A stretch of DNA of 64,000 nt, taken from assembly GCA_021234155.1 (NCBI GenBank), contig JAJEKV010000142.1, positions 1,032,001-1,096,000 of the forward strand, read 5' to 3'. The position numbers and the translations under genes were made by a program. The notes under the pieces were generated by a model that saw only the letters and a program-made list of their open reading frames with translations, was not told the DNA's origin and searched no databases. The stretch comes from Isoetes taiwanensis. Taxonomy: Eukaryota; Streptophyta; Lycopodiopsida; Isoetales; Isoetaceae. Position 1 is the stretch's first letter. Every line of letters begins with the position of its first letter. This document shows, piece after piece, positions 2,689 to 62,960 of the stretch.

Positions 2689-2699
2689 GTATTTTAATA

Positions 2700-4780
2700 G
2701 AACTCAGATCAACCTTAGCATTTACAATGTTCTAAGTTTGTTTGAACACTATTTAGAAAATTATTTTGTTCTCATTCAATACCAGTTAATTGGAAGCATT
2801 TGACAACATGTTCGTAGCTGCAGATTGTTTTTCTTAATGTGAATAACAAGTTCCAAATCTGAAACAGCTTTCTGAATCCTTTTGCAAGTATCCTTCCGGT
2901 TTGAAATGGTTTTAACATGAATTGCTCTGTGGAAAATAGAGGCATAACTTCATTCCTTGAGAAGTAAGGCCCTGCCAGAGTTAGGGATTCCACAACATCG
3001 TTGCCCTTTATTTTCCCCCGCCAACATCACCAAGCGTTGTCGACTCTGCTAACCATTCTTGACTACTGAAGAAGCTATTGAACCTAGCAGTGCCGTTCCA
3101 CCTGTGGCATGCATGTGGATACTAGAGGAATGCAGCAGGCGCCATAGGCGCCCTCGCGAACCCTAAAAAGAAAACCCATATTAAAAAAAAAAACTCAAAA
3201 CTTTGTGACGTGGCATCATTATTACCATTGATTTGGTCGAATCTGGGCCGTTAAAATTAGGGCGTGGTTCAAGACACACACAATAACATTATAATATAAG
3301 ATGGATATGCATTGCCAGTTTTAAACACTGAATCAATGTGTATTAGATTAGAATTTCCACTTTCTGGGACTGGGACTAGGACATCTAAAGAAAATCACCC
3401 AGAGAAAGATACAATTGTGCTATCCTTGCCTTACAAAGGTAGAGTGTTCTGCGCTATGGGTTTTGGATCTTGGCTGAACCATAAAATCGGTTCACTTAAA
3501 GCCTAAAGCGGCCCATTTCCATGGAGAACGAGTACTTCAGGTAAGTTCATCTGATATGGAGTTTTTCTGCATGTTCTATCAGATCTGATTGTCTCCAGCA
3601 ATTGTCGGTTCACAATTTCACCAACAGCCATGGGCCCCATGAATCAGTCAGTTCTACTCTATCTCGAGTTATTCTAAGCTCCTCAGAATAGATTCGAAAT
3701 ATCAAAAAGCTACTATACCAAGCCATGGCCCTTTATGTCCTTACAGAAACCTCTATGATTCTACAGAAATCTTTAAATGTCTACGATTTTAAACCCTGTA
3801 AAAAGCTACCAAGCACTAAGTTTGTTCTTACCTAATAGCGATCTTGTTAAAACTTCTGTAAACCATAGCGAAGGAGGTCGAGACGGCAAATAGAGGCGAC
3901 ATGTATGTGGCTGCAACCCCTTTTTTGCCCTCTTTTTTTATCAACTAATTTCCTTGGAGATACCTCAAGGACTCCAGATGGGAGAAAATTTGACGCCATC
4001 ACCGAATGCCAATGCCGGCCATTATTGTAGATCAATTAGTCATTTACACGTGTTTAATAAGTAGCAAAGCTGACGTCAAAGTTATTGTTTATCCATTTAT
4101 CCACACACGTGATGATTCAAGGGTAATCCCTATTCAAGTCGAAGGAGGTGCAAATAAAAAGCTGAAACACGATACGTGTCAGCAGGAGAGCCAATTTCAA
4201 AGAAAATGCAGCAAAGAAAATACCGAGGATAGAAAATGAGAATGCATTATATAAGAGTGATGAGCTATACATTCATTTGGTTGCACGTCATATCCTTGTA
4301 CTGCACAAGCAACAAAATAGATATGTGTTTGGTCAAACTCCTATAACATATGCAACAATTATGCTTTCTAGCATTGCATGACTATATCTGAGACTTCTAT
4401 CTACATAAGCAATACAATATATATTGCTCCAGGCCCGCAAAATACCATTTTGTTGTACAATGGAGGCAACTGATATAAATCTTTGGAAGTGATAACATCC
4501 ATTTGATATGGAGCAAGCATGAGGAATAGTCCACGGTGAATGGGTTACGAAAATATAGCAAAATTATGGCAAACATTATGTGAATGCTACTCCGAATGTC
4601 TCCCCAAGGGTATATAAAGAAGGGGCATAGGATAACATAGACCTTTGGAAAAATGTGTATGACCATTGTAATATTTTATGAAAGGGGTCGAGGCACTATC
4701 AGTGGGATGATTATTAATTTGGATCGAGCTTGAAGAAAAGGCCATAGATAATAACATATGATAAGTCAAGTGTTCTAATT
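2700..4780. other. intergenic, no gene recognised
   Basis: Several short open stretches on both strands, none with a recognisable motif. There is a poly(A) run near 3180-3195 and otherwise unremarkable AT-rich sequence. Confidence 0.4.
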
Positions 4781-9083: not shown

Positions 9084-9360
9084 TATAAAATACATTTAAA
9101 TAAATTTAATGTAAAGGTAAAGGAAATGTAGATCATTTAAACATTGGGCAGGCGAATCATCAGCAGCAGCGGCGAATCAGCAGCAGCAAGATGTGTAGGC
9201 CTATACAAAGGCATTTATAAAATACATTTAAATAAATTAAAGGCATTTATAAAATACATTTAAATAAATTTAATGTAAAGGTAAAAGGAAATGTAGAACA
9301 TTTAAACACTGGGCAGGCGAACGGATGAGCAGGAGTAGAGCGAATTAGCAGCAGCGGCGA
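9084..9360 (+). promoter_or_regulatory. duplicated leader/promoter region of the Dof-like gene
   Basis: TATAAAA-containing AT-rich modules occur at 9084 and 9248, with a partial one near 9198. Each full module is followed by TTTAATGTAAAGGTAAA, then GGGCAGGCGAA and CAGCAGCRGCGAA runs. The unit is a tandem duplication of about 160 bp ending just before the ATG at 9383. Either TATAAAA could be the core promoter. Confidence 0.45.
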
Positions 9361-9382
9361 ACTAGTAGAGGAGAAGAAACTG

Positions 9383-11437
9383 ATGGAGGAGAAGAAATTG
9401 GTGGTTCATGATGCATACAAAAGATATAATGCAAAGTTTCCATGCCCATTTTGTCACAGTTTTAACACGGTGTTCGACTACGCAAACAACAACAAGATGG
9501 AGCAGCCCCGGTTTAAGTGTAAGGACAAAACGCGGAAGAGAGGAGTGAAGGGACAGAAGGGAATGAAGGGACACCTATTCAGCCCCTTTGGCGTGGTGAA
9601 GGAACTGCACAAAACATATGAGCAGTTTCTGATGGGTTATCAAGAGTATGGACCCGCCCTTGCTAGTCTTCGTTTGGCCAGGGAGGAGATCGGGCGGCTG
9701 CTTGCCTCTTTCCCACCCATGCAAAGCCCCAGCAGTCGGAACCCTAACCCTAAATCTACTTCTTCTGGTCCTGCCCAACAGGGTTTTGATGGCACCCAAC
9801 AGGGTTTTGGTGCTGCCCAACAGGGTTTTGGTGCCACACAATACACAGGTGTTGCTCAAGGTGTCCAGCAGCATCAAATGTGGGCGAATCCATATCTTGG
9901 GTTGCCATATATGGCTCAATCAAGAAATGGTAATTGGCAGCCTAACAACATGGTGAATCCAGTATATGCAGGTTCTTCTTCTGGTGTTGACGCTGTATAT
10001 GAGCAACAAATAGGGCCAGGTATGGCCAAACCAGGAAATGGGTACTTGGCGAATCAAGTATATGCGCAGACCAACAACAGTCCATACAATATTATGCCTC
10101 CAAATTCTGGGTTGTATTATCAGCCTCGGCCATGCAACCCTAATTTGTATTGTCAGTATCCTGCTCTTGAAGGATCTGATTTTGTGCAAGAAGATCGGCG
10201 GGTGCATTTGTACCAAACCGAAGAGCCCCCAACTGAAGATGATTCTTATGGCTGTGTTCAAGGTGTACATCAACAGCAAATTATGCCCAATCAAGTATTG
10301 GGCTGGCCAAATATGTCCGAAAAAAGAAATGAATATGGGCTGCAGACTGACAACATAACGAATCAAGTATATGGGTGGCCAGATATGGCAAATCTGCAGG
10401 CCAACAACATGGCATGCAATAATATGCCTCCGAATATGGCGGATTATCAGCCTCAGTGCAAACCTAATATGGCAGCCCCGGTGCTGCTTCCTGAAGAAGA
10501 CTTCTTGCAAGACCAAGGGCAGCGTAAAGCAGAGTTGGCACCCCTGTATTTGTGCCAAGCTAAAACTCCAACGTGTAACAGTTTGGAGTCTAATTTGACA
10601 GACCAAGAGCCTGTGATTCAAGAACATGATTATTATGGTAATAATTATATGGATTGTTGCACCACAGAAACAGAAGCACAGATAGAAACAGATAGAAACA
10701 TGAACACAATACAAGAAAATGTGGATTGTTTTCAGAATCACTCCATCCAAAGATTGATAGAAATAGAAACACAAATTGCAACAGAAACTGCTGGTGCTGG
10801 GTCAGAGGAGAAGACTGCTGGTGCTGCTGATGATATGTGGCTATCTTCACAACAACTTGTGAACCAAGCACACAATATTCAAGCTCAAAGAATAGGGACA
10901 GAAGATGTGCTTTGTCTAAGTAATACGGATGAATTCATGGAGATAAATCCAAAACAAACACAAAATTTGGATCCAAACGATGGCCAATCACCTAGAAAGA
11001 TGAACACAATACAAGAACATGTGGATTGCTTGCAGAATTGCTCCATCCAAAGATCCATAGAAATAGATGAGAAAAAGAAAGATGAGATTGAGTCAGAGGA
11101 GAAGACTGCTGCTGTTGTTGATAGCATGTGCCTATCTTCACAACAACTTGTGAACCAAGCACACACTATTCAAGCTCAAACAATAGAGACAGAAGATGTC
11201 CTTTGTCTACATAATACTGATGAATTCATGGAGATAAATCCAGAACAGATACAAATATTGGATCCAAAAGATTGCCAAACATATAGTAAGGTGGCAAGTC
11301 TAGAGCCCGCGATTTCAAATTGCGACTTTAAGCCGGACATTATCACTTATGTGGTTAATCTCATTGACTATGAGGACCACCCTCCATCATATTTTTCTCT
11401 GTGGTCACATTCTGAGTGCCTCTGGTCATTACCATGA
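9383..11437 (+). CDS. Dof-like zinc-finger protein with degenerate finger and internal repeats
   Basis: An intact 684-codon ORF. Residues 21-46 follow the Dof pattern: C21-P-F-C24, then exactly 21 residues to C46, including NT.F.Y.NN and QPRF.CK. Dof proteins are plant-specific transcription factors with a CX2CX21CX2C finger. Here the fourth ligand position is Lys49 (CKDK instead of CxxC), and the RYWTxGG tail is replaced by a basic stretch (KTRKRGVKGQKGMKGH), so normal zinc binding is doubtful. Around residues 131-152 there are three QQGF repeats encoded by 21-bp units. A long N/Q/P/Y/M-rich middle follows, with diverged repeats around VNPVY and TNQVY. Two 100-residue repeats start at residues 440 and 540, each with a TIQE-VDC start, LSSQQLVNQAH and TDEFMEINP. 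The ATG at 9383 is the first in frame after the TGA at 9326. There are no introns. It could be a neofunctionalised or transposon-associated protein. Confidence 0.65.
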   Translation: MEEKKLVVHDAYKRYNAKFPCPFCHSFNTVFDYANNNKMEQPRFKCKDKTRKRGVKGQKGMKGHLFSPFGVVKELHKTYEQFLMGYQEYGPALASLRLAREEIGRLLASFPPMQSPSSRNPNPKSTSSGPAQQGFDGTQQGFGAAQQGFGATQYTGVAQGVQQHQMWANPYLGLPYMAQSRNGNWQPNNMVNPVYAGSSSGVDAVYEQQIGPGMAKPGNGYLANQVYAQTNNSPYNIMPPNSGLYYQPRPCNPNLYCQYPALEGSDFVQEDRRVHLYQTEEPPTEDDSYGCVQGVHQQQIMPNQVLGWPNMSEKRNEYGLQTDNITNQVYGWPDMANLQANNMACNNMPPNMADYQPQCKPNMAAPVLLPEEDFLQDQGQRKAELAPLYLCQAKTPTCNSLESNLTDQEPVIQEHDYYGNNYMDCCTTETEAQIETDRNMNTIQENVDCFQNHSIQRLIEIETQIATETAGAGSEEKTAGAADDMWLSSQQLVNQAHNIQAQRIGTEDVLCLSNTDEFMEINPKQTQNLDPNDGQSPRKMNTIQEHVDCLQNCSIQRSIEIDEKKKDEIESEEKTAAVVDSMCLSSQQLVNQAHTIQAQTIETEDVLCLHNTDEFMEINPEQIQILDPKDCQTYSKVASLEPAISNCDFKPDIITYVVNLIDYEDHPPSYFSLWSHSECLWSLP

Positions 11438-25830: not shown

Positions 25831-26014
25831 CCAACCTGAGAAAAATGAATCAATGAGGGATCAGTAGACATAGTGTTGAACATGTACCAGACATTGGATG
25901 GCTCCAATTGAAAAGCAAAGCCAGAGGCAGCCGTCTTCTCTAGTGCTATTTAAACATCTTCTATTGTGGCCTCAACCCTTCTGGTGCACCTCCTAAACAA
26001 AAGAAGAAAAAGCA

Positions 26015-27495
26015 ACAAATCCATACAGTTTCCAGGAGAGAACTAGGTGAGCAAATGGCACGCATCGGAGTTCCCATCGAGATAAGAGGCGCAGTCTCAC
26101 TTTTGTACTCAGAGGTACTCATTAAACTGAGCTGGGATATGAATGATTTGGTCAGAAACACCATTGGGGTACGTCAAGGATGCCCGCTATCTCCCACTTT
26201 GTTTGGCCTATTCATAGACGAACTTGAGGAATGGCTCAGAATGAGATCCTTAACAGGTGCACCACTCGATTCATACATAGTTCAACTCCTTATGTATGCG
26301 GATGATGTGGCTTTGATGGCAAACAAGGAGAAAGTTTTACAATGCTACCTGGATAGTCTGGAAGCATTTAGTGCTGCTAAGCAAATGAAAGTAAATCTTT
26401 CAAAATCAAAGGTTATGATCTTCGGGACTAGGGATCGACCAAAATTCATGTATGGTGGAAGCGAACTACAGACAGTAGAATGTTACAGATATTTAGGAAT
26501 AGAATTTTCCTCTAAATATAACTGGAAGGAATGCATCAAAAATAGAGTCACGGGAGGCAAATCTGCACTATACAGTATGTTATACAGGTGTTCTAAGGCA
26601 GCATTACATAATTGGAGATTGAAGAAGATTTTGTTCAAAACATTGGTGCAAACAGTCACCCTCTATGGTTCGCCTATCTGGGGACCGAATATCTCCAAAA
26701 AGCTATGGAATCAAATTGAAAACGTGCAGAAAACCTTCATCCAAGATGAGCTTGGCACTAAATACCAGATCCCATACGCAATCTTGCTTGCTGAAACAGG
26801 ATTGCTCCCGCTGGAAGTGGAGGCTTTGTTCCAAGCCATCAATTTTGTAAACAGATTGAAAAAGCAGGCACTGGACAGACTATCCCATGCAGCAATGGTA
26901 AATTCTGAACAACAGGGATGGTATCGGGATCTGATGAATTGGGCAGGTAGATGGGGCGTGACAGAAGCTAACTGGCCGGAGAATAAATCGGATGCACGCA
27001 CTCTGCTGGTTCAGCTGGCCAATGCAAGTTTATGGTCCTCTCCTGGTAGCCGGATGCATCATTACAAGACTTATGTTAATCAGACACTAGAACAGGGCAG
27101 CCAGGGATACTTGGATTCGGACATCCCGAGGCCATTAAAACAAGTGATTGCACGATACAGAACCAGTTCCCATAGATTGGCTATTGAGACAGGTAGATGG
27201 TACAAAATCCCAATTGAGGAAAGGACTTGCAAGGCCTGCGTTATCCAGTGTATAGAAAGTGAAGATCATGTGTTTGCCTACTGCCCAGCATATTCAGAAA
27301 TCAGAGAGAAGTTCACAATCAAAGTTCAAGATTTCAGATCCTTATTTTCATTATCATATTTCGATTTGGGTCTATACTTAAGGGGTGGATGCACACCGTT
27401 CCTTACTACTGAAATTATGACTGTAATGATTTGCAGGCTCCATGGCTCTCTTCAGGGTCCTAAGTGAGCTAGTTAAATAAATAAATAAATAAAAT
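26015..27495 (+). mobile_element. 5'-truncated LINE (non-LTR retrotransposon)
   Basis: The element contains the RT/C-terminal ORF described separately and ends in (TAAA)n at 27472-27495, the tail type left by target-primed reverse transcription. Homology to LINE proteins starts near 26020 (TVSRREL..), so everything upstream of RT block 3 is missing. No clear target-site duplication was found. Confidence 0.75.
26055..27467 (+). CDS. LINE reverse transcriptase C-terminal part (5'-truncated ORF)
   Basis: 470 codons without a stop. RT block 4 is at residues 38-50 (GVRQGCPLSPTLF), the catalytic YADD is at 81-84, and MKVNLSKSKVMIFG and YRYLGIEF follow, then the LINE-specific region with LYGSPIWG. 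Near the C-terminus RTCKAC...ESEDHVFAYCP gives a C-x2-C...H-x4-C zinc-knuckle-like zf-RVT signature. The endonuclease and the first RT blocks are missing. The open frame continues upstream without an ATG to a TAG at 25941-25943, and LINE-like residues (TVSRREL) appear just before Met1, so the annotated Met is internal. The catalytic residues shown are intact, which suggests a fairly recent insertion. The other copies at 21.5 and 29-31 kb are far more decayed. Confidence 0.8.
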   Translation: MARIGVPIEIRGAVSLLYSEVLIKLSWDMNDLVRNTIGVRQGCPLSPTLFGLFIDELEEWLRMRSLTGAPLDSYIVQLLMYADDVALMANKEKVLQCYLDSLEAFSAAKQMKVNLSKSKVMIFGTRDRPKFMYGGSELQTVECYRYLGIEFSSKYNWKECIKNRVTGGKSALYSMLYRCSKAALHNWRLKKILFKTLVQTVTLYGSPIWGPNISKKLWNQIENVQKTFIQDELGTKYQIPYAILLAETGLLPLEVEALFQAINFVNRLKKQALDRLSHAAMVNSEQQGWYRDLMNWAGRWGVTEANWPENKSDARTLLVQLANASLWSSPGSRMHHYKTYVNQTLEQGSQGYLDSDIPRPLKQVIARYRTSSHRLAIETGRWYKIPIEERTCKACVIQCIESEDHVFAYCPAYSEIREKFTIKVQDFRSLFSLSYFDLGLYLRGGCTPFLTTEIMTVMICRLHGSLQGPK

Positions 27496-29506: not shown

Positions 29507-31450
29507 AATAAAGTATGAGCTTCATCTTCAACCTATTGTATATCATAAAGAAAATACAAACTCTCTTCTTTTTGAATCTTAGCCCACCTCCCTGCCTCAA
29601 TATGCAATATATGTGAGCTCGATCTAAATCGAGCAATTACCTATTTCAAATGTGGAGGAGATATATAAGCATGCAAGTAATCCTGACAAGTATAGATTTG
29701 CATAGGGTTAATCTCATTCTGATAAAAAGAAAGCCTTGAACCTTTTGTTGTCCAAAGCTTATTTATAGCTAGAGATTGTACCAAGTCCCGAGCTCCTAAA
29801 ATTGTAATCGGCCAATTTGCCTCAGAAATACCCCATTTTCCTGCGCAAGACATCACAACCTAATACCATTTAGTGTTTGGATTCAAGCTCATCTTCGACC
29901 ACCTGCCATCATCCAATTTTCCCAATCTATTTATAAAATTAATTGTCATCCAAAGGGTCTCTGGTTCTAAAGGTATCATGCCAGTCTCAGCTAACATAAT
30001 TGCAAAAGGAGTTTGTGATTTAACCCCCAGCTCCTCATGTAAAAAGATTTTCAAGATGGATTCAAAATAACACCACACTTTTACAAAAAGAGAAGGCCTC
30101 CAAATTGGAATGCCATACAATAACACAATCTGCACTGGTGTTTTGAAAAGCATTTTCTTTAGTTCAAAAGCAGTCAGGGATGCTTTATGACACCTAGAAC
30201 GCATTCTATATAGAGCTGCTTTCTCAGCAAGCCTCTTATGCACGCATTCTTTCCACTTAAAATTTGATGTCACCTCCAATCCCAAATACTTATCGTAATT
30301 AACTGGTTCAAGGAGCTCGCCTTTGTAATAGAATATTGATGCCCTAGAAGACCCAAATATTATTATTTTGAATTTGCTCAAGTTTACCTTCATCTTGCGA
30401 GCCTCACAAAAGGATTTAAAATTGTCAAGATGTTTTTGGAGGCCATATGAATTTTCAGAGATAAGCACAACATCGTTAGCATAAAGCAACAATTGAAGAA
30501 CATAGTGTTCTAAACAAGAACCTGCATGCCCTCTAACTCTCAATCAATGTTCTAACTCATCAACATAGAGTCCAAAGAGGGTTGGAGATAGCGGACAACG
30601 TTGTCAGACTCCAATTGTGCTTTGAACTTTGCAATGACCATATGCTTTGCAATTTTTTTGCAAAAGCATACGCTCTTAATCTTAACACATTCCTTTAGTC
30701 GTATTGAACGAACATAGATCCTTTACCATGACAATTGCCATAGATCCTAATGTCCATCATTACATGAACCCTTAAGTTCAAAGAGTATAGAAATATCAAG
30801 ACATCAAGCCTTGACATATCAATCAACCCTTGAACTTTGTTGTAAAATGTGTTTCAAAGTTAATGGAAATCTTAAGGAAAAGAATTTCATGATTGGGACT
30901 TATTATATCTCTTAAGAAGTCTTAAACTTATTTTCCATAATTAAAATTCTCAAGACATTATCTTGTTCACTATATTAGTACATGGATACTTAATTTCTTT
31001 AAAAGGACCATAGAGTTACTATCTTATAACATTTAACAAAGGTTAACTTTTCCCTTTGAACATTTTCTTGTTCTTGAACCTTGATCCTCTACAAACTCAC
31101 CTTATTCCCTTTCAATATTTTCTTGTTCTTGAATCTTGATCCTCTACCAACTCGTCTTAACGGATTTAAAAGATGACATAGTGCTCAAAAATATATGTGC
31201 TTGTTTCCTCACAACTTCTTCCTAGGGAACATATCGAAAGCTTTGGCGAAGTCCATAATGCAGAAATACAGATCATATCATCTAATTCGGTTGTCCTCTA
31301 TCAAGATGCACAATGTGAAGATGTGGTCTAAAGTGAAATGTTTGGGCCTAAACCTTGCCTATTGCAAGTGCGCATACCCTTGCTTCCTCTGTCCATGTTG
31401 TCAATTGCTGCTCAAGCATATCAGCCAACAGTTTTGCCAACAATGAATGA
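29272..31450 (-). pseudogene. LINE retrotransposon, minus strand, broken
   Basis: Read on the minus strand. Near 31380-31200 are QARFRP..FTLDHIFTL and CIMDFAKAFDMFPRKKL, the RT blocks around the first catalytic Asp. At 30540-30620 comes a block-4 version QRCPLSPTLFGLYVDELE with a stop on each side. At 29860-30543 a 227-codon frame contains LLLYANDVVL (YADD changed to YAND) and YLGLEV. At 29641-29856 and on to about 29440 lie KWGISEANWP, IEAGRW and EDEAHTLLHCP (zf-RVT). The 3' tail is the ATTTATTTATTTTATTT-type run at 29275-29300. About 500 bp of unrelated AT-rich sequence (30660-31190) splits the RT domain. The loss of the second catalytic Asp, several stops and the insertion mean it is dead. 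Confidence 0.75.
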
Positions 31451-34671: not shown

Positions 34672-35013
34672 AACGTGCACGAATTTTTTTACACAGAGAA
34701 AGAAATTCTTCCGCTTCTCCTGGACGTCAATCCCAAAGAAGAACTTATACCTCTGATCAAAAACTCAGAATCACACATGGCTGACATCAATCCCACTCGT
34801 AAGTACAAAAACTTATAGAAACGACTACTTAAAGTTATGATTCCTAATAACAAAAAGCTCCAGGCAGCGAGACCCACGAGCATGAAAACGAGGATCCAAA
34901 AAACGGTATTCACAAACTCCATATTTACTGTTACCTATACATCGTCGGATTTAATATTAACTGCTTGGACTTCAAACAGAATCTCCGTCCTCTGAACCAC
35001 CACCAGTTGTGGC

Positions 35014-35316
35014 TAGTCAGAGCAAAGTTTCAATCGTAGCAGAGAAAAGCTACCGTTTGAAACGGCCACAACACCTGTCCAACTTGCACGCCTCAGAGCT
35101 TCTGGTCTAGCCAATGAATTGGGGTATGTTTTCCTTGAGCTGGCTGAAATTTTTGAAGATTCTCGAATTCAAACTAGTGGCATAACAACAGAACTAGGAT
35201 GCAATCTTATAAATTTGATCCGTGCTGCTAAAAGTTTAAAGAAGCTGCAAAAATGCTTGAAACTCATGGACATTAATACTGCAGTAGACGAAGCATGCAA
35301 AAGACGAAAGCTGTAG
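35014..35316 (+). other. possible first coding exon of the AT-hook/Helitron gene
   Basis: The frame is open from an acceptor-like AG before 35014 to a TAG at 35314. It encodes a Leu/Ala-rich helical-looking peptide (ARLRASGLANELGYVFLELA) ending KRRK, an NLS-like cluster. A GT lies two bases before the stop (AAAGCT|GTAGGA), so it could splice to the AT-hook exons. I do not recognise the domain. Confidence 0.35.
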
Positions 35317-35832
35317 GAAATTTATGTTTGTCTATTAAATTTTCCTCTCTGCCGTGTATACATTGTCTTATAATTTCCATAATATAATAGTAGTTGGATA
35401 CTTTTTTACGTATTCCATACTAACTTATAGTTTCTCATGAATTCATATTGACATGTGAATTTTTTCAATCTGCATAATGAAGAATTTTTTTATGTAATAC
35501 AATGAATCTAATCGTTGCAAAATAATGTAGGAATTGATTAACAGAAAACATTGGCAAATTATCCTCTAGATTAAATAGAGCAAAACACTGTAGTTTAGAT
35601 TGAATATATTCTATTTGCACAAGATCTAATCTATACTTCAGTCATCATCTGTACTGATGCAATAAAAAATGATAGGCCTTTGTCCATAACTGGACGACGT
35701 AAATACATGCGAGAATATCGAAAGAAATGCAATATGCCTCAATGTGCCCCAAATAACAAGTACGTACGTTTACATTATTAGAAACTTGGATTGATATGTG
35801 CATTAATAACTTGCAATTTGTTACTCTTACAG

Positions 35833-35898
35833 TGATAGCATGAACGCTACATCTAGCCACAACCTTACTGTGTCGAACAAAAAAAGAGGTCGCCCCAG
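35833..35898 (+). CDS. AT-hook exon 1 of the Helitron-associated gene
   Basis: Bounded by TTACTCTTACAG and CCCCAG|GTATTT. It is 66 bp long with 1+63+2 bases, so both introns are in phase 2. It encodes a Ser/Asn-rich lead and ends NKKRGRPR, with the last Arg split across the junction: a classic AT-hook core (RGRP) that binds the minor groove of AT-rich DNA. Confidence 0.6.
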
Positions 35899-35976
35899 GT
35901 ATTTATTTGATGCCTTCATCTATTATTAACCTATTAGTTTGGAATTGACATATATGAAATCACATTTAACTCACAG

Positions 35977-36027
35977 AAGTTGCGAGAAAAAGACAGATGA
36001 GCTGGTGAAAAAGATAGGTCGCCCTAG
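35977..36027 (+). CDS. AT-hook exon 2
   Basis: 51 bp in the same phase 2-2 layout, following AACTCACAG. It ends VKKIGRPR with a GC donor (CCTAG|GCATTT) where the sister exons have GTATTT. The first Arg of RGRP is Ile, so the hook is weakened. Confidence 0.55.
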
Positions 36028-36113
36028 GCATTTTTAAGGATCAATCCGCATACATTACTATGGTCCATAAATTCTACATATGATTCATACACTAATTGGA
36101 AGTTTTTACGCAG

Positions 36114-36179
36114 AAAACATACCAAGATTGTGCCCAATGGCGACAACAGCACCGAAACAACAAACAAAAAATGGCTCAG
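36114..36179 (+). CDS. AT-hook-derived exon 3 (hook lost)
   Basis: 66 bp, phase 2-2, after TTTTTACGCAG and before AG|GTCAGT. It is open throughout and ends TNKKWLR in the place where the sisters have NKKRGRPR, so the exon shape is kept but the DNA-binding core is gone. Confidence 0.5.
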
Positions 36180-36244
36180 GTCAGTGCATCATTTTTTTAT
36201 ATCTATTATCAAACTTTACTTACAAAATGATGAATTACAAACAG

Positions 36245-36319
36245 GAAAAACAATACAAATCCGACTGACCAAAACCAAAGTGACGTTACTATTGTCAAGA
36301 AGAAAAGAGGACGCCCCAC
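36245..36319 (+). CDS. AT-hook exon 4
   Basis: 75 bp, phase 2-2, after ATTACAAACAG. It encodes an Asn/Gln/Asp-rich lead and ends VKKKRGRPT before CCCCAC|GTATAT. The hook core is intact. Confidence 0.6.
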
Positions 36320-36394
36320 GTATATCCTTAAAGCCATTCCAATTGTTTACAATTCAAAATAAAAATAATTTGATACTTAGCACTTTCACATAAG

Positions 36395-36468
36395 AAAGAG
36401 AGTGACCATACAAACGCCACCATTTAGTCTAAAGTTGACATGTGCAAAAAAAAGCGGGGCCGTCCGAG
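36395..36468 (+). pseudogene. AT-hook exon 5, decayed
   Basis: 74 bp instead of a multiple of three. It ends CKKKRGRPR before CCGAG|GTATTT, but the hook frame contains an in-frame TAG 16 codons upstream of the junction, plus the one-base length defect. The hook itself is perfect. Confidence 0.55.
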
Positions 36469-36536
36469 GTATTTACATACTTCAACCTTTACATCTTTAT
36501 AAATCTTATATACTGCGATCTAAAAGATTTCCACAG

Positions 36537-36599
36537 GAAAACTGATCACGTTGATGACGAAACTAGCAACGTTAACAAAAAACGACGAGTAAATTCCAA
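36537..36599 (+). CDS. AT-hook-like exon 6
   Basis: 63 bp, phase 2-2, after GATTTCCACAG. It ends VNKKRRVNS in the hook position and is followed by a GC donor (CCAA|GCATGT). It keeps the basic cluster but not RGRP. Its split Lys codon would join the next exon in frame. Confidence 0.45.
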
Positions 36600-36712
36600 G
36601 CATGTCTATATTCTGATTTCATTTTTATTCAATTTATAGTCCTTTTCTATTATGCAAATGTCACACTTTTTGTTATTCCTTCCAGTAATTTTGTCTTTAT
36701 GTGTATTAATAG

Positions 36713-37079
36713 GACACGTATAGAATTCGCGGATACTAGACTAGACGTGCCACCAAGCTCATCCACTAATCATGCCGTACCCCCATCTGTTGACCCTACA
36801 GTTGCTACAACTGTAGATTCTCCTAATATTGCAATAGCATCCGAACATTGGCTAAAGCAAATCAAAACTATGAATGAAACCCTTAGACCATTAAACCACG
36901 AATTGCTAAAATGGAATAGACAATGTGATATATGTCACATTGAACTATTGAACACTGAACGACCTACCTTTTGTTGTAATAACGGCCATAGATTACTCCC
37001 ATCACTCCAACCACTTCCTAGTGAGTTGGAAAAGTTGTATAACATACTTGATTTCGCCAGAAACTCACGCATTATTCCT
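36713..37079 (+). pseudogene. Helitron N-terminal zinc-finger exon
   Basis: Begins after ATTAATAG and continues the phase of the AT-hook exons. After a Pro/Ser/Thr-rich linker it reads CDICHIELLNTE, FCCNNGHRLLPSL and LEKLYNILDFARNSRIIP. This matches the C-x2-C ... C-C-x-x-G-x-x-x-L-P-x-L segment that precedes the helicase-like domain in plant Helitron proteins; in intact proteins the text goes on to Y-N-x-x-F-x-F-T-S-L-G. Here it stops at a TAA (37080-37082). The expected continuation (NNLFCFTALG) reappears 1.2 kb downstream at about 38270, so the coding sequence is interrupted by inserted DNA rather than truly ended. Confidence 0.65.
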
Positions 37080-37490
37080 TAATCTACACCGTACGTAAAG
37101 TTCCTCGTTTGTGGGGTATGCAAGTACAAAATTTGCTATACTGTATAACAAGATTCGCAAAATACTATAAGATTTCAAGCGGAATACTATATGGTATTGA
37201 TTTTGTACGTGCAAAATACAATTATGAGGGCTCTCGCTGCCCTACGTCACCCCCCGTGTGAATATGCATCCAAACCAAAGGGGGTTTAAGGGGGATTTTA
37301 ATTTAAATGTGTTGGACCCAATGGTTATGTTAATTAATGTCAATGGTAGTTATGTGTTGGTTGTTAATGTCAATGGTTGTTATGTGTTGGTTGTTATGTG
37401 TTAGGGGATTTAATTTTTATATGTTGGATGTTAATGGTTTGTGTTGCAAAAAAAATTTTTTGGCCCCTTCGGGCCTTAGGGACGTCCCCT
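37075..37490 (+). mobile_element. insertion in the Helitron: single-arm copy of inverted-repeat family C
   Basis: 37083-37240 matches the reverse complement of the 56474-56600 spacer (CCTCGTTTGTGGGGTATGC, GGGCTCTCGCTGCCCTACGT). 37240-37460 matches the arm (GTGTGAATATGCAYCCAAAC, CCAAAGGGGG). Both copies end in an A-rich stretch and a GGGCC-TTC-GGCCC type hairpin followed by TTAGGGA. The other arm is absent here. Confidence 0.6.
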
Positions 37491-38120
37491 CCCAGGTGTG
37501 ACAAAAAATTTTAGAATTCAAACCAGAAAAAAACTAGAATTCATTTGAGGCTTTCATCACCTGTAGCTTTTGAATTTCATCACAATAAAACAAATAGAAC
37601 ATAAGTAAAAGTTACCATAAAGATAGAGCGGATTGATCCCATTATTCTGAAAGTCATAAAGTTTGCAACACCCATACACAAACATTTTTCAACGGGAATT
37701 TAACAGCAACCTTTGGCCTCCATGGATTCTTATGGTGAGAAACCAAAGTGGGAAACTTTTCTCCTTGTTAGCACGAGGATCTAGAAGCCTTGGAATTTAC
37801 TTAATAACTGCCTCAAAATCTAAAAATGCATAATAATTTTTTGCAACCTTCATTCGGAATGAGCCATAAAACAATATCCAATAGCGCAATCCTGTATTTA
37901 TCAGCTGGTAGGATGTGAAAGCCTACCAAACCCGGCTGAAAAATTGCTGTTTTAGCATAGATAGCTTAACCAAACATATCCATATCATACACTATCAAAA
38001 AGATCTCGGAGAGAGCTTTCCAACGCAATAAAAATCATCTCAAACAGAGCTCTAGATCAAAAGTTATGATAAGAAATGTGTTGCCGGCGGGGAAACTGCA
38101 CTACATGCGCCCTTAACCAT
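37490..38120. other. non-coding insert inside the Helitron
   Basis: No coding signal and no similarity noticed to the rest of the window. It is part of the 1.2-kb interruption. Confidence 0.4.
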
Positions 38121-38267
38121 TGGAAAAAAAAAGGCTAAAATCAATGGCTCAGAAATGGTGCACTCTAGATGTACGCATTAGTACATCCATTTGAATACAT
38201 CACGAAATCATAGGAAAACCTTAGTGAAAAGCGTACAAAAACACAAAGAAAACCCCATGTTATTATG
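38120..38267 (+). repeat. dispersed repeat family B, copy 2
   Basis: Shares CACTCTAGATGTACGCATTAG, GTACATCC and the TGTTATTATGCTACAT end with 59300-59415 and partly with 27850-27970. Its right edge abuts the resumed Helitron coding sequence. The ATG at 38191 lies inside this repeat and is not the start of the Helitron protein. Confidence 0.65.
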
Positions 38268-39640
38268 CTACATATTCAACAATCTTTTTTGCTTCACCGC
38301 ACTTGGTGTCAAAGGAGATTTCGTAAATCTAAAAATGCCATCGTCGGTAGCTATCATGGGACGAACATATCATCGCCTTTTGTCTGCAAATGAATCTACC
38401 AGTAGCCTGCATTGGTATATATACGACGATAGTATACGATATAGCATTGCTGCTGAAAAGCAAATTCCAACCACTTGGATTATGCAAGTAGGCATCATAT
38501 TACAGTCCACAAACCCATATGCCCAAAAACTCAAAACAATTAAGCAGTTGCACCCTTCACCTGCCACACTGACACTCGCCGATCCTCCAGCATCAGATGA
38601 AATTGCTGCTATCATGCACACAAATGACACTACCACAATAACACCAAGGACCGCATTATTTTGGATGCAAGTCAAGCATCCTCCAATCTTTATAAGCATT
38701 CTTGATGCTGAATACGAACCTTTGCAATATCCACTTCTTTATCCACATGGCACATTAGGATGGCATCCAAAAAATGAATATAAGATGTCCCAGATTGACT
38801 GGTATAGAACAAGATTATTGCATGAACCTCGTTTTTTGCAACTCGGCCGCTTATGTGGCGAATATCTAGTGGATATGTATTCACGGGTTGAAGAAGAGCG
38901 TCTTAACTATATTGCAACAGAAGGTTTCCGACGAAACACTCTGCAACATGAAGAAGATTTCATTGACGACGAAGATGAAGATATACGTCGCGGAATATTG
39001 CCAGCTTCATTCCTAGGTTGTAAACAGTGGTGTGCTGTACAAGTAGCTGATGCACTTGCACTAGCAAGAGCAAAAGGAAGACCAACTCTATTTATAACAA
39101 TGACAACAAATCAATTTGGCCAAACTGCATCAGACATTCCTATGATTGTCGTTCGTGCATGTCACGAAGAGTCCAGCACACAAAAGATATCATCCGAAAA
39201 TATTTAGGCTCTATATCCTACATGATGCATGTAATCGAATTCCAAAAGCGTGGACTACCTCACGCACATATTGTCGCCAAAACCCAATACGATATCCCAA
39301 TCTCTATAATCGATCATCTCATCTCTGCAGAATTGCCAACAGACCCAACACTCAGATCACTAGTCAAAAAATACATGATTCATAGACACTCATCAAGATG
39401 TCTTAAAGACACCGGAAAATGTTGCTATGGATATCCAAAGCCCATCAATCCCACAACAATACAGAAGGTGAACGGAAGCTGACATCAATGTTGTGCCATA
39501 TATCCCATTTCTACTAAGAGAAATGGATTGCCACATATATGCAGATATTGCTTCACCAGTACATATATTCGCGTACCTTTATGGATATATCTATAAAGGA
39601 TTTGACACAACACGATTTCATATCAACACCACCCCACAAC
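38268..39640 (+). pseudogene. Helitron helicase-like / Rep (HUH) domain
   Basis: From 38268 the text resumes with FNNLFCFTALGV. It continues through the Helitron helicase-like domain: PLLYPHGTLGWHPKNEY, LCGEYLVDMYSRVEEERL, RGILPASFLG, and Rep motif 1 as RPTLFITMTTNQFG. The frame then shifts near 39150-39170. It continues IEFQKRGLPHAHIV, where H-A-H is the HUH metal site, then SAELPTDP, YMIHRHSS and KCCYGYPKP. A stop and frame change follow near 39480. VPYIPFLLREM and AYLYGYIYKGFD then give motif 3 with its conserved tyrosines, which would nick and covalently join DNA. The gene once encoded a rolling-circle transposase, and at least two frame breaks disable it. The following Q-P repeat (QPQPQPQP) is unusual. 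Confidence 0.8.
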
Positions 39641-41919
39641 AGCCAGAACCTCAACCACAACCACAACCCCAACCTCACACCAGCACAGCCACTCCAAACT
39701 ACTGCCCACAAAACCAAAACCCAACCCAAAAACGAAATTCAAGATTACATTTCCGCACGCTATTTATCATCCATGGAGGCTACATGGAGAATTATGTCAT
39801 ATCATATAACAGAAAAACATCCACCCGTAAAATCTCTCCCTCTTCACCTAGAAGGACAAAACAGACAACGCTTTGCAAGAATATCAACAACCACTGGACT
39901 TTCCACACTAGATAGATATTTTCTTCGACCTCTTGATCCCATATTTGATTCTATGACCTATATAGACTACAACGAGAAATATACATTCACCGTATACAAC
40001 TCAAATACCCCATTACGTCCTACAGATTATCTTGAACAGCCATTTCCAAACGCTACACAAAACATAGTACACAAACGAGTGAGAGGAGAGTTGATCTGCA
40101 GAATACGTTTGCTACTTCCAAAAGTTGGAGAAGCATTCTACCTAAGAACAATACTGCTCCACAAACCTGTCCGTTCATGGACTGATCTAAAAATCCACGA
40201 AGCCCACCACTATACCACTTACCAAGAAACTGCACAAGCAATGGGGTTAATTGCACCAGCAACCGAATCTATCAAAGCAATGGAGGAAGCCATATCCTGC
40301 TTTCATACACCATCACAACTTAGATTTCTTTTCACACTTCTCATACTTGATAATGGGCCAGCACTTGACCTCTGGAATATATTTCAAGACCATCTAACAG
40401 CCGACTTTCTAGATCAATATCACGCAGATAAGCCCATTGCAATCAACGAAACACTTATAGCTATCAATAATATCTTAGTACAACACGGAACAAATGTTCA
40501 AGCCTTCGGACTTCCAATATACAATACATTATCTAAAGAAGTCCAAAACGAGCTTAAAAAATTCCCCGACCACCAACAATACCTCACCAAAGCCTCAAGT
40601 ATGTTTGATAGCATAAATGCAAACCAAACATCTATCTATACCCATATACATAACCTCATTGACAGCGGACATCCATCTAAACCAATTTTTATCTACGGAA
40701 AAGCTGGCACCGGAAAAACTTACCTCCTTAACGCAATTGCCCTTTACATACGAGGAAAACACCAAATAGTTTTACCATGCACAACAACAGCACTCGCATC
40801 CCTGCTGGCAGAACTGCACATTCACTTTTCCAAATACCTGTCATCGAAAATAATATCGGTATACACTCACTACTTGATCCACAGTCGCCAAGAGCAACAT
40901 TAATTAACCAAGCAACTGCTATTATATGGGACGAATTTCCCATGGCAAACAAAGCAGTCATAGAGGCAGTCGACGTATTATTGCGAAAAATAACAAATAT
41001 AAACCTACCATTTGGAGGAAAATTACTCATAGCAGCAGGAGATTTCAGACAAATCGCTCCCATCGTTAAAAGAGCAGGCAAAACAGCAACAATTAATGCA
41101 TCCATTAGATCATCGCATCTATGGGACCATTTCGAAATTCTACACCTCAACGAACCAGTAAGAAATGCTGGAGATACAGACCTCATACACTTCGTTAATG
41201 CCATAGGACAAGGAGACCTACTCACTAACATTCCATTGACATTATTCAAGACAACTACCAACCTTGAAGATGCTGTCAACTTCTTATATAACAACTATAT
41301 CCTTGCAACACCCGAAAAATGCGAGAAAAGAGCATTCTTATCACCCAAAAACATTACAGTCGATGCATTCAACGACATAATCCTGCATATGCTTCTAGGA
41401 ATACCCAAATTATATTTCAGCGTAGATAGACTCACAGAAAACGATCAAACCATAGAGGACCATCCAATGGCCACAACTGACTTTCTTAACGGTTACAAAC
41501 ATCCATCGCTCCCGCAACACCTTCTTCAACTTAAACCCAACACAATTTGCCACATCACAAAAACACTTGACAAAGACAGAGGGCTGGTAAAGAATGCCGG
41601 GGTAATGATACATTCAACACATGATAGATTTGTAACAGTTAGACTTCTTACTGGAGAACCGCAACACACAGGCAACATCCACCCCATCTCCCGAGTCGAT
41701 TTCTTCCACCAACCTGATAAATGGCCTTGGACAATTCACAGACGCCAACTTCCACTGCGCCCAGCGTATTCAACGACATTCAACAGTTGTTTAGGACTAA
41801 CCCTTGACAAAATAGTCCTCGACCTATGAACCGAAGTCTTTGCACACGGCCAACTATATACAGCACTCACTCGAGTCCGAACAAGAAACGACGTATTAAT
41901 TCTACTTGACGAAGCTAAC

Positions 41920-62233: not shown

Positions 62234-62797
62234 TCACAGCTCATCCTCCATCCGCAAATATTCTCCAACATCATCCTGATGAAGGGCCACAATATCATTT
62301 GGATCCAACTTTCTGCAATCTTGGGTAGTTTTTGCAGCCAAACCAAACCCTAAAGGTATATCTGACATAGAATATATAACCACACCTTGGTACTGAGAAG
62401 TATTATCAGTGATTCTACCAAGGCCACTCTTAAGGACATGATTTCCATAGAGAAATGACATCTCAGAAGAAGGTTTAAGCCAAATTTTGTACTTGGCATG
62501 AGCTGCAAGAAGATCTAAGCAAGTTATAGTAAGCTGGAACTTACCGGATTTTGTAAATTTTCCAATGCAAGTGCCCAGTCCGACAAGCTTCTCACGAGAA
62601 ACATTGGTGGCCCTTTTCACAAGGGATTCGCTTACATAATATACCCGCTGCTTGTGCAACCGGAAACAGTATCGCCCAGGTTGTGAATCGGGTCCTTCCA
62701 AGGCAGGCCGCTCTACCAGATGCTTCAGATTGGAACCCACAAATTTGTGTAATTTCTCGAACACAACCGTTGTCTCTTGCTCGTCCAGAGGCCGCAT
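62234..62797 (-). CDS. NIP7: 60S ribosome subunit biogenesis protein NIP7 homolog
   Basis: 187 codons from ATG (62797) to TGA (62234-62236). It begins [16 protein letters not shown] as in known NIP7 proteins. It continues [72 protein letters not shown] and TQDCRKLDP, ending [12 protein letters not shown]7 has an N-terminal pre-PUA domain and a C-terminal PUA RNA-binding domain; it acts in the nucleolus on pre-60S particles and 27S rRNA processing. Other eukaryotes have about 180 residues; the few extra residues lie just before the CFRLH motif (GPDSQPG). No intron interrupts it. The frame is open for 20 codons upstream, but only from a GTG, and a telo-box lies there, so the ATG is the start. 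Intact and very likely functional. Confidence 0.95.
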
Positions 62798-62818
62798 CTT
62801 CGAAGCTCTCCGTCCTCT

Positions 62819-62827
62819 AAACCCTAA
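62819..62827 (+). promoter_or_regulatory. telo-box (AAACCCTAA) at the NIP7 5' side
   Basis: AAACCCTAA lies 22 bp upstream of the NIP7 ATG. Telo-boxes are known near the start of many plant ribosomal-protein and ribosome-biogenesis genes, often just downstream of the transcription start, which fits the gene's function. Confidence 0.6.
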
Positions 62828-62960
62828 CCTAACCCCTTCCAAAAACTCCAAATTCACAAACTATCCAATTTTACTGAAAAAAGCACTCCAAAATATTTGA
62901 CTGAAAAAACTAGTCAAACGCAATTTTAATTACTTTGCATAGCAATGTTCTGTATAAGGG

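Follow-up and report, generated by a model that had tools for sequence, protein, structure and literature searches.

The stretch of the Isoetes taiwanensis genome analysed here (contig JAJEKV010000142.1, positions 1,032,001 to 1,096,000; 64,000 nucleotides, hereafter the window) contains a Helitron, which we call the window copy; loci fetched from the same genome are labelled L001, L002 and so on. Six exon-like blocks, all on the forward strand, are found at 35833-36599 (+), each placed between an AG and a GT or GC. They had been reported in the initial annotation of the window, and their coordinates, lengths, peptides, acceptors and donors were all recovered. Hook exon 1 (35833-35898, 66 bp) encodes NKKRGRP, hook exon 2 (35977-36027, 51 bp) KKIGRP, hook exon 4 (36245-36319, 75 bp) KKKRGRP and hook exon 5 (36395-36468, 74 bp in the window copy) CKKKRGRP. 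Basic exon 3 (36114-36179, 66 bp) encodes NKKWL, without a GRP core, and basic exon 6 (36537-36599, 63 bp) NKKRRVNS. The GRP core of the AT-hook is present in four of the six blocks (1, 2, 4 and 5). An additional exon-like block of 84 bp, exon 0 (35676-35759, +; peptide PLSITGRRKYMREYRKKCNMPQCAPNN), with phase 2 at either end, lies 5' of block 1; its limits were checked, and it aligns in the window copy, L001, L002 and L003. The array is followed by the zinc-finger exon (36713-37076, +), with the motif CDICHIELLNTERPTFCC and a phase-2 acceptor joining exon 6 in frame. We consider it likely, with good confidence, that in one clade of the Helitrons of this genome the RepHel transposase has an N-terminal array of AT-hooks, encoded by phase-2 symmetric exons in which the donor follows each hook immediately.

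Comparison with the Pfam AT_hook model, a check suggested in the initial annotation, gave 18.1 bits for the joined peptide of blocks 1-4 (PF02178, cut-off 17.4); a peptide of L009 scored 16.6 bits, under the same cut-off. As annotated, five of the six blocks of the window copy are symmetric, with a length divisible by three and phase 2 on either side. Block 5 was probably also symmetric originally, since in L001, L002 and L003 its acceptor is one base further upstream and the exon measures 75 bp. The two annotated GC donors, of blocks 2 and 6, are present in the window copy but are not common to its relatives. Exon 6 has a GT donor in L001-L003, and the donor of block 2 is GT in L002 and altered in L001, the exon being absent from L003. 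Thus, the GC donors of the window copy look like decay, and the alignment with L001-L003 rules them out as a trait common to the window-copy subfamily. Donors of the form AG|GCAAG recur in hook exons at L011 1805, L014 1452 and 2778, and L070 1889, suggesting that this Helitron family may make use of GC-AG introns. The codon after GRP starts with AG and is cut by the intron, so that the predicted hook abuts the 5' splice site and the first base of the next exon sets Arg or Ser. Arg is usual after GRP in the AT-hook consensus. In the window copy, the first base is A in exons 2 and 3 and G in exons 4 and 6, which would place Arg after blocks 1, 2, 3 and 5; block 4 ends in AC. The first base of in-phase exons elsewhere is A or G (Arg) in 11 of 28 cases and C or T (Ser) in the other 17. 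Donor and hook would thus abut, but the residue after the core is not always Arg.

Close relatives were collected by a DNA search of the same genome with 35640-37090 as the query, and six of them were fetched (L001-L006). The array is present in L001-L004, in the last of which it is spread across several kb. In the alignment of the window copy with L001, L002 and L003, the blocks correspond one to one apart from gaps and gains of exons. Among these four copies, pairwise identity is 77.5% in the hook tail (last 24 nt, blocks 1-5), 82.9% in the donor segment (8 nt) that opens introns 1-5 and 79.2% in the zinc-finger exon, versus 62.4% in exon bodies and 67.5% in the middle of introns 1-4. Hook and donor are thus held, whereas the spacer drifts at the rate of introns or faster. 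The gap in L003 corresponds to window positions 35935-36066 (132 bp) and takes out exactly exon 2 plus parts of both flanking introns. Between exons 5 and 6, L001-L003 have additional exon-like sequence with no counterpart in the window copy. L014 contains a 487-bp duplication (1366-1852 / 2692-3175) of 92.6% identity that includes a hook exon, and a second duplication (1050-1342 / 2299-2590) of 79.6% identity that includes another; in the latter, the second copy of the hook exon has stops in its body. The array gains and loses whole predicted units between copies, in line with the modularity proposed in the initial annotation.

The survey was extended to the entire genome (1.66 Gb), with the reversed sequence as control. 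The pattern AARMGNGGNMGNCCNAGGTRAGT, which combines a KRGRP hook with the consensus donor AG|GTRAGT, has 110 matches in the genome and none in the control. The hook pattern with the GTATTT donor seen in the window copy has 10 versus none, and one 23-mer, searched with up to 3 mismatches and without imposing the amino acids, has 173 versus 3. A genome search with the zinc-finger exon gave 793 candidates, 150 of which were scored and listed. When 100 of the 110 matches to AARMGNGGNMGNCCNAGGTRAGT were compared with these 150, 63 had a listed zinc-finger exon at most 6 kb downstream on their own strand, whereas about 0.03 would be expected by chance (own arithmetic). Two are near one but on the wrong side or strand, and 35 have no listed zinc-finger exon. 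We also read 38 zinc-finger loci, comprising 18 picked for higher ranks or long open frames (L007-L024) and 20 systematic ones (L067-L086), obtained by stepping through ranks 30-147 and passing over those already fetched. Hook exons with an AGG[TC] donor are found in 26 of the 38 loci (12 of the 20 in the systematic set), 49 in all, and in none of the 38 on the opposite strand; stops interrupt the body in some of these exons (L014, L082). Most hooks appear to stand at the 3' end of their own short exon of 51-96 bp, most often 81. In one element, C1045, two hook exons are followed by an open frame of 1411 aa that contains LPHGHIV, DYISARY and Walker A motifs, and L009 has the HUH motif LPHGHIV and Walker A in an open frame. 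A scan of viral contigs with the zinc-finger exon returned 35 stretches fitting a pattern, none of which was confirmed. On the control searches and the opposite-strand count, we reject a chance origin of the hook-donor pattern.

The codons of the hooks and the phase of their exons were examined as well. Of the 173 matches to the 23-mer, 100 were listed, namely 14 exact ones and 86 with 1 or 2 mismatches. Exon changes in these 86 are synonymous in 90 cases and nonsynonymous in 4, a ratio to be taken as a pattern and not as a probability because the copies are related and 73 matches fall outside the listing. Counted over 24 distinct strings, 29 changes are synonymous versus 2 that are not, against a 24% share of synonymous changes among all possible single changes. 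The donor alone would not demand this, since it spans the last bases only. The ratio of nonsynonymous to synonymous differences (pN/pS) is biased for the hooks, which had been picked by pattern, and the identity and synonymous-change tests were relied on instead. For 38 hook exons (40 sequence windows fetched, 2 duplicates dropped), the best-scoring upstream acceptor sets the length at a multiple of three in 28, among them 14 of 81 bp, and at another length in 10. The median upstream open frame is 116 nt in the frame of the hook versus 45 and 44.5 in the other two. The blocks might be imagined as products of chance or as decayed tandem repeats with no coding role, since the exon bodies drift like introns, without clear coding constraint, and the hook-plus-donor stretch is repeated. 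The control counts (110:0, 10:0 and 173:3), the empty opposite strand (0/38) and the synonymous pattern of the hook codons argue against this explanation, the least probable of those we weighed. Alternatively, the hooks might come from a host AT-hook gene, a fragment of which was captured and carried as a passenger. Helitrons do capture gene fragments, according to the main text of PMC4778049, but many diverged copies share the array, in a similar place and with the same orientation, and the hook changes are mostly synonymous; judged from these Helitron copies, a passenger is very improbable. With hooks and donors kept in diverged copies, acceptors mostly in phase and a preferred place upstream of the zinc-finger exon, the blocks behave as exons of the Helitron, as had been supposed at the outset.

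A more serious alternative, though still an unlikely one, would make the hook exons a small AT-hook gene in its own right within the Helitron, ending in a stop of its own and unconnected to the transposase. Their joining to the transposase is predicted from sequence, and another small open reading frame (ORF) does lie upstream of the transposase (34777-35316, +). In addition, the zinc-finger acceptor scores best in the right phase in 11 of 26 hook-bearing loci, which also counts against the AT-hook array as part of the transposase, the test being a simple and weak one. The best zinc-finger acceptor is the site shared with the window copy in L003, whereas in the window copy itself, L001 and L002 another site is preferred. 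By contrast, exon 6 is in frame with the zinc-finger exon, as stated in the initial annotation, and the acceptor is common to the window copy, L001, L002 and L003. For seven further loci (L009, L010, L011, L015, L016, L017 and L078), the top-scoring acceptor is a phase-2 TAG|G located where the zinc-finger exon begins. The distance is also restricted, with 43 of the 63 placed hooks at 372-621 bp from the zinc-finger match. We hold it more probable that the hooks belong to the transposase. The zinc-finger exon of the seven loci opens with an LSAATLEG..RRKYYQEYRA-like segment that resembles, by eye, exon 0 of the window copy (ITGRRKYMREYRKK). Because of this resemblance, the window-copy subfamily seems to carry its hooks 3' of a segment which in other loci comes after them.

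The accessory ORF, conserved in an alignment with L002-L004, consists of three exon-like pieces (approximately 34777-34798, 34864-34905 and 34980-35316, limits by reading). Its peptide ends in ..EACKRRKL*; the start is uncertain and the frame is broken in the window copy. With the last 90 residues as the query, 49 matches were found in the genome. Of 45 places examined, 20 are followed within 12 kb, on the same strand, by a listed zinc-finger exon or hook. In 2 others such a neighbour is listed on the opposite strand alone, and 23 have none among the matches listed. No Pfam family matched the ORF at E up to 1, and a single-sequence structure model consists of helices only, at low confidence (mean pLDDT 59.5). 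The ORF may encode an accessory protein of these Helitrons.

Several observations weigh against assigning the array to the transposase. No hook exon is present within the ~3-4 kb of upstream DNA read in 12 of the 38 zinc-finger loci, so that the occurrence of the blocks in relatives, on which the initial annotation had staked its proposal, was borne out for the larger part, 26 loci, and not for the remainder. One of the loci, L019, has a strict hook match 4.3 kb upstream, just beyond the stretch read. The hook-less loci include zinc fingers reading CTYC (L024, L084, L086) or CGFC (L023), so the hook array seems to be a mark of some of the Helitrons in this genome. L005 and L006 match the window query on the zinc-finger side alone, with one hook each further upstream. 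Within the window copy, the AT-hook annotated in every block holds for those with GRP, while blocks 3 (NKKWLR) and 6 (NKKRRVNS) are basic only, with no hook core. The best acceptor is out of phase in 10 of the 38 hook exons, an in-frame stop occurs in 4 of the 28 in-phase ones, and hooks joined to the 17 in-phase exons beginning with C or T would be followed by Ser. The slightly lower identity of exon bodies relative to mid-introns points in the same direction. In 127 pairs of 81-bp exons (29 of 33 exons, chosen as open), exon-body pN/pS is 0.72 in frame versus 0.42 one base out of frame; as the out-of-frame value is lower, this measure lends the exon bodies no coding support, and no clear purifying selection or coding constraint is evident in these 81-bp exons. 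The copies are akin, so the counts are not independent events. Finally, in a related element, a conserved hairpin occurs 3' of the helicase stop, but similarity between copies continues past it (Helitron ends being sought as 5'-TC...CTRR-3' with a 3' hairpin and insertion between A and T). This hairpin is at L087 3640-3766, with copies in L091-L102, and in most of the copies read is followed by GGGTTCGACTCC, which is tRNA T-arm-like by eye.

The remainder of the window copy has the parts of a Helitron transposase. The zinc-finger-like motif sits before the Rep part; because the exon matches no Pfam family at E 0.001, the motif was judged from its cysteines. An insertion of ~1.2 kb (37077-38277, +; limits are BLAST ends), absent from L001 and L003, interrupts the transposase. 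The open frame with the Rep (Helitron_like_N) part (38182-39207, +) starts inside this insertion and matches PF14214 with E 3.9e-12 (47.2 bits, cut-off 28.9). A PIF1-type helicase follows in two overlapping frames (39518-41829, +; PF05970, E 2.4e-11 and 2.5e-34). The Rep and helicase parts are spread over several frames and, together with the insertion, lead us to judge that the window copy is a dead Helitron. Elsewhere in the window, long open frames at 25944-27467 (+) and 29860-30543 (-) are non-LTR reverse transcriptase-like by eye (..YADDVALM..), and a NIP7-like ribosome biogenesis protein with pre-PUA and UPF0113 domains is encoded at 62234-62860 (-). A 702-aa open frame at 9329-11437 (+) matches part of the Dof zinc-finger model (PF02701) with 36.5 bits. 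Dof proteins are a plant family, and the match points to a green plant.

Taken together, the array suggests an enzyme with an adjustable DNA-binding tail. Splicing of the hook exons to one another and to the zinc-finger exon is predicted from the genomic sequence. With phase 2 on both sides, each exon together with its intron would make up a self-contained unit, and copying, loss or skipping of such a unit would keep the frame. We would expect the protein to have a flexible, disordered, multivalent chain of minor-groove binders ahead of the zinc finger, likely to serve as a nuclear localisation signal as well. Alongside the zinc finger, this tail could contribute to the binding of AT-rich DNA, be it at the ends of the element or at AT-rich target sites. 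More tentatively, and with odds that we place rather below even, hook number might be tuned by exon gain and loss between copies and by exon skipping within a copy, the codon behind each hook core doubling as the 5' splice site, to yield transposase forms of graded affinity or target choice across a whole clade of plant Helitrons. End binding by Helitrons and their choice of AT-rich targets are poorly known, and the N-terminus is the least understood part of the transposase. A modular array of minor-groove binders that varies by whole units within one genome would be a natural series in which to test the number and role of hooks. It would also exemplify a protein motif with a splice site immediately after it.

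Literature on Helitrons, AT-hooks and transposase exon structure, covered at the level of titles and abstract openings and with subscription journals mostly outside the scope, yielded no description of this layout. AT-hook motifs and helicase-like proteins are mentioned together in the descriptions of some Arabidopsis genes. In Sleeping Beauty and similar transposases, an AT-hook-like minor-groove motif aids DNA binding, as a single motif inside the DNA-binding region and without an exon array. In HMGA2, an animal chromatin protein, the first three exons encode the three AT-hooks (an excerpt of PMC11354804); HMGA2 is not a transposase, and the parallel is one of gene layout alone, with no homology claimed. 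The link between Helitrons and AT-hooks in an excerpt of PMC8725346 concerns binding sites of AT-hook factors. The closest comparisons are with other Helitron transposases. The Rep part of Helraiser, a bat Helitron (PDB 7lcc), is homologous to that of the window copy (E 4.4e-10). Like the enzyme described here, Helraiser has a zinc-finger-like motif. Its N-terminal 489 residues are required for binding single-stranded DNA, and the term AT-hook is absent from the main text of PMC4778049. The transposase gene of FENG8, an active wheat Helitron, has seven exons, with the last intron beginning with GC, and its product has a large N-terminal domain in which the first 264 residues are predicted to be disordered except for two helices (main text of PMC13286980). 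We compared FENG8 by description only; neither hook nor AT-hook appears in that main text. The predicted AT-hook tail of the Isoetes elements fits the place occupied by the N-terminal regions of Helraiser and FENG8.
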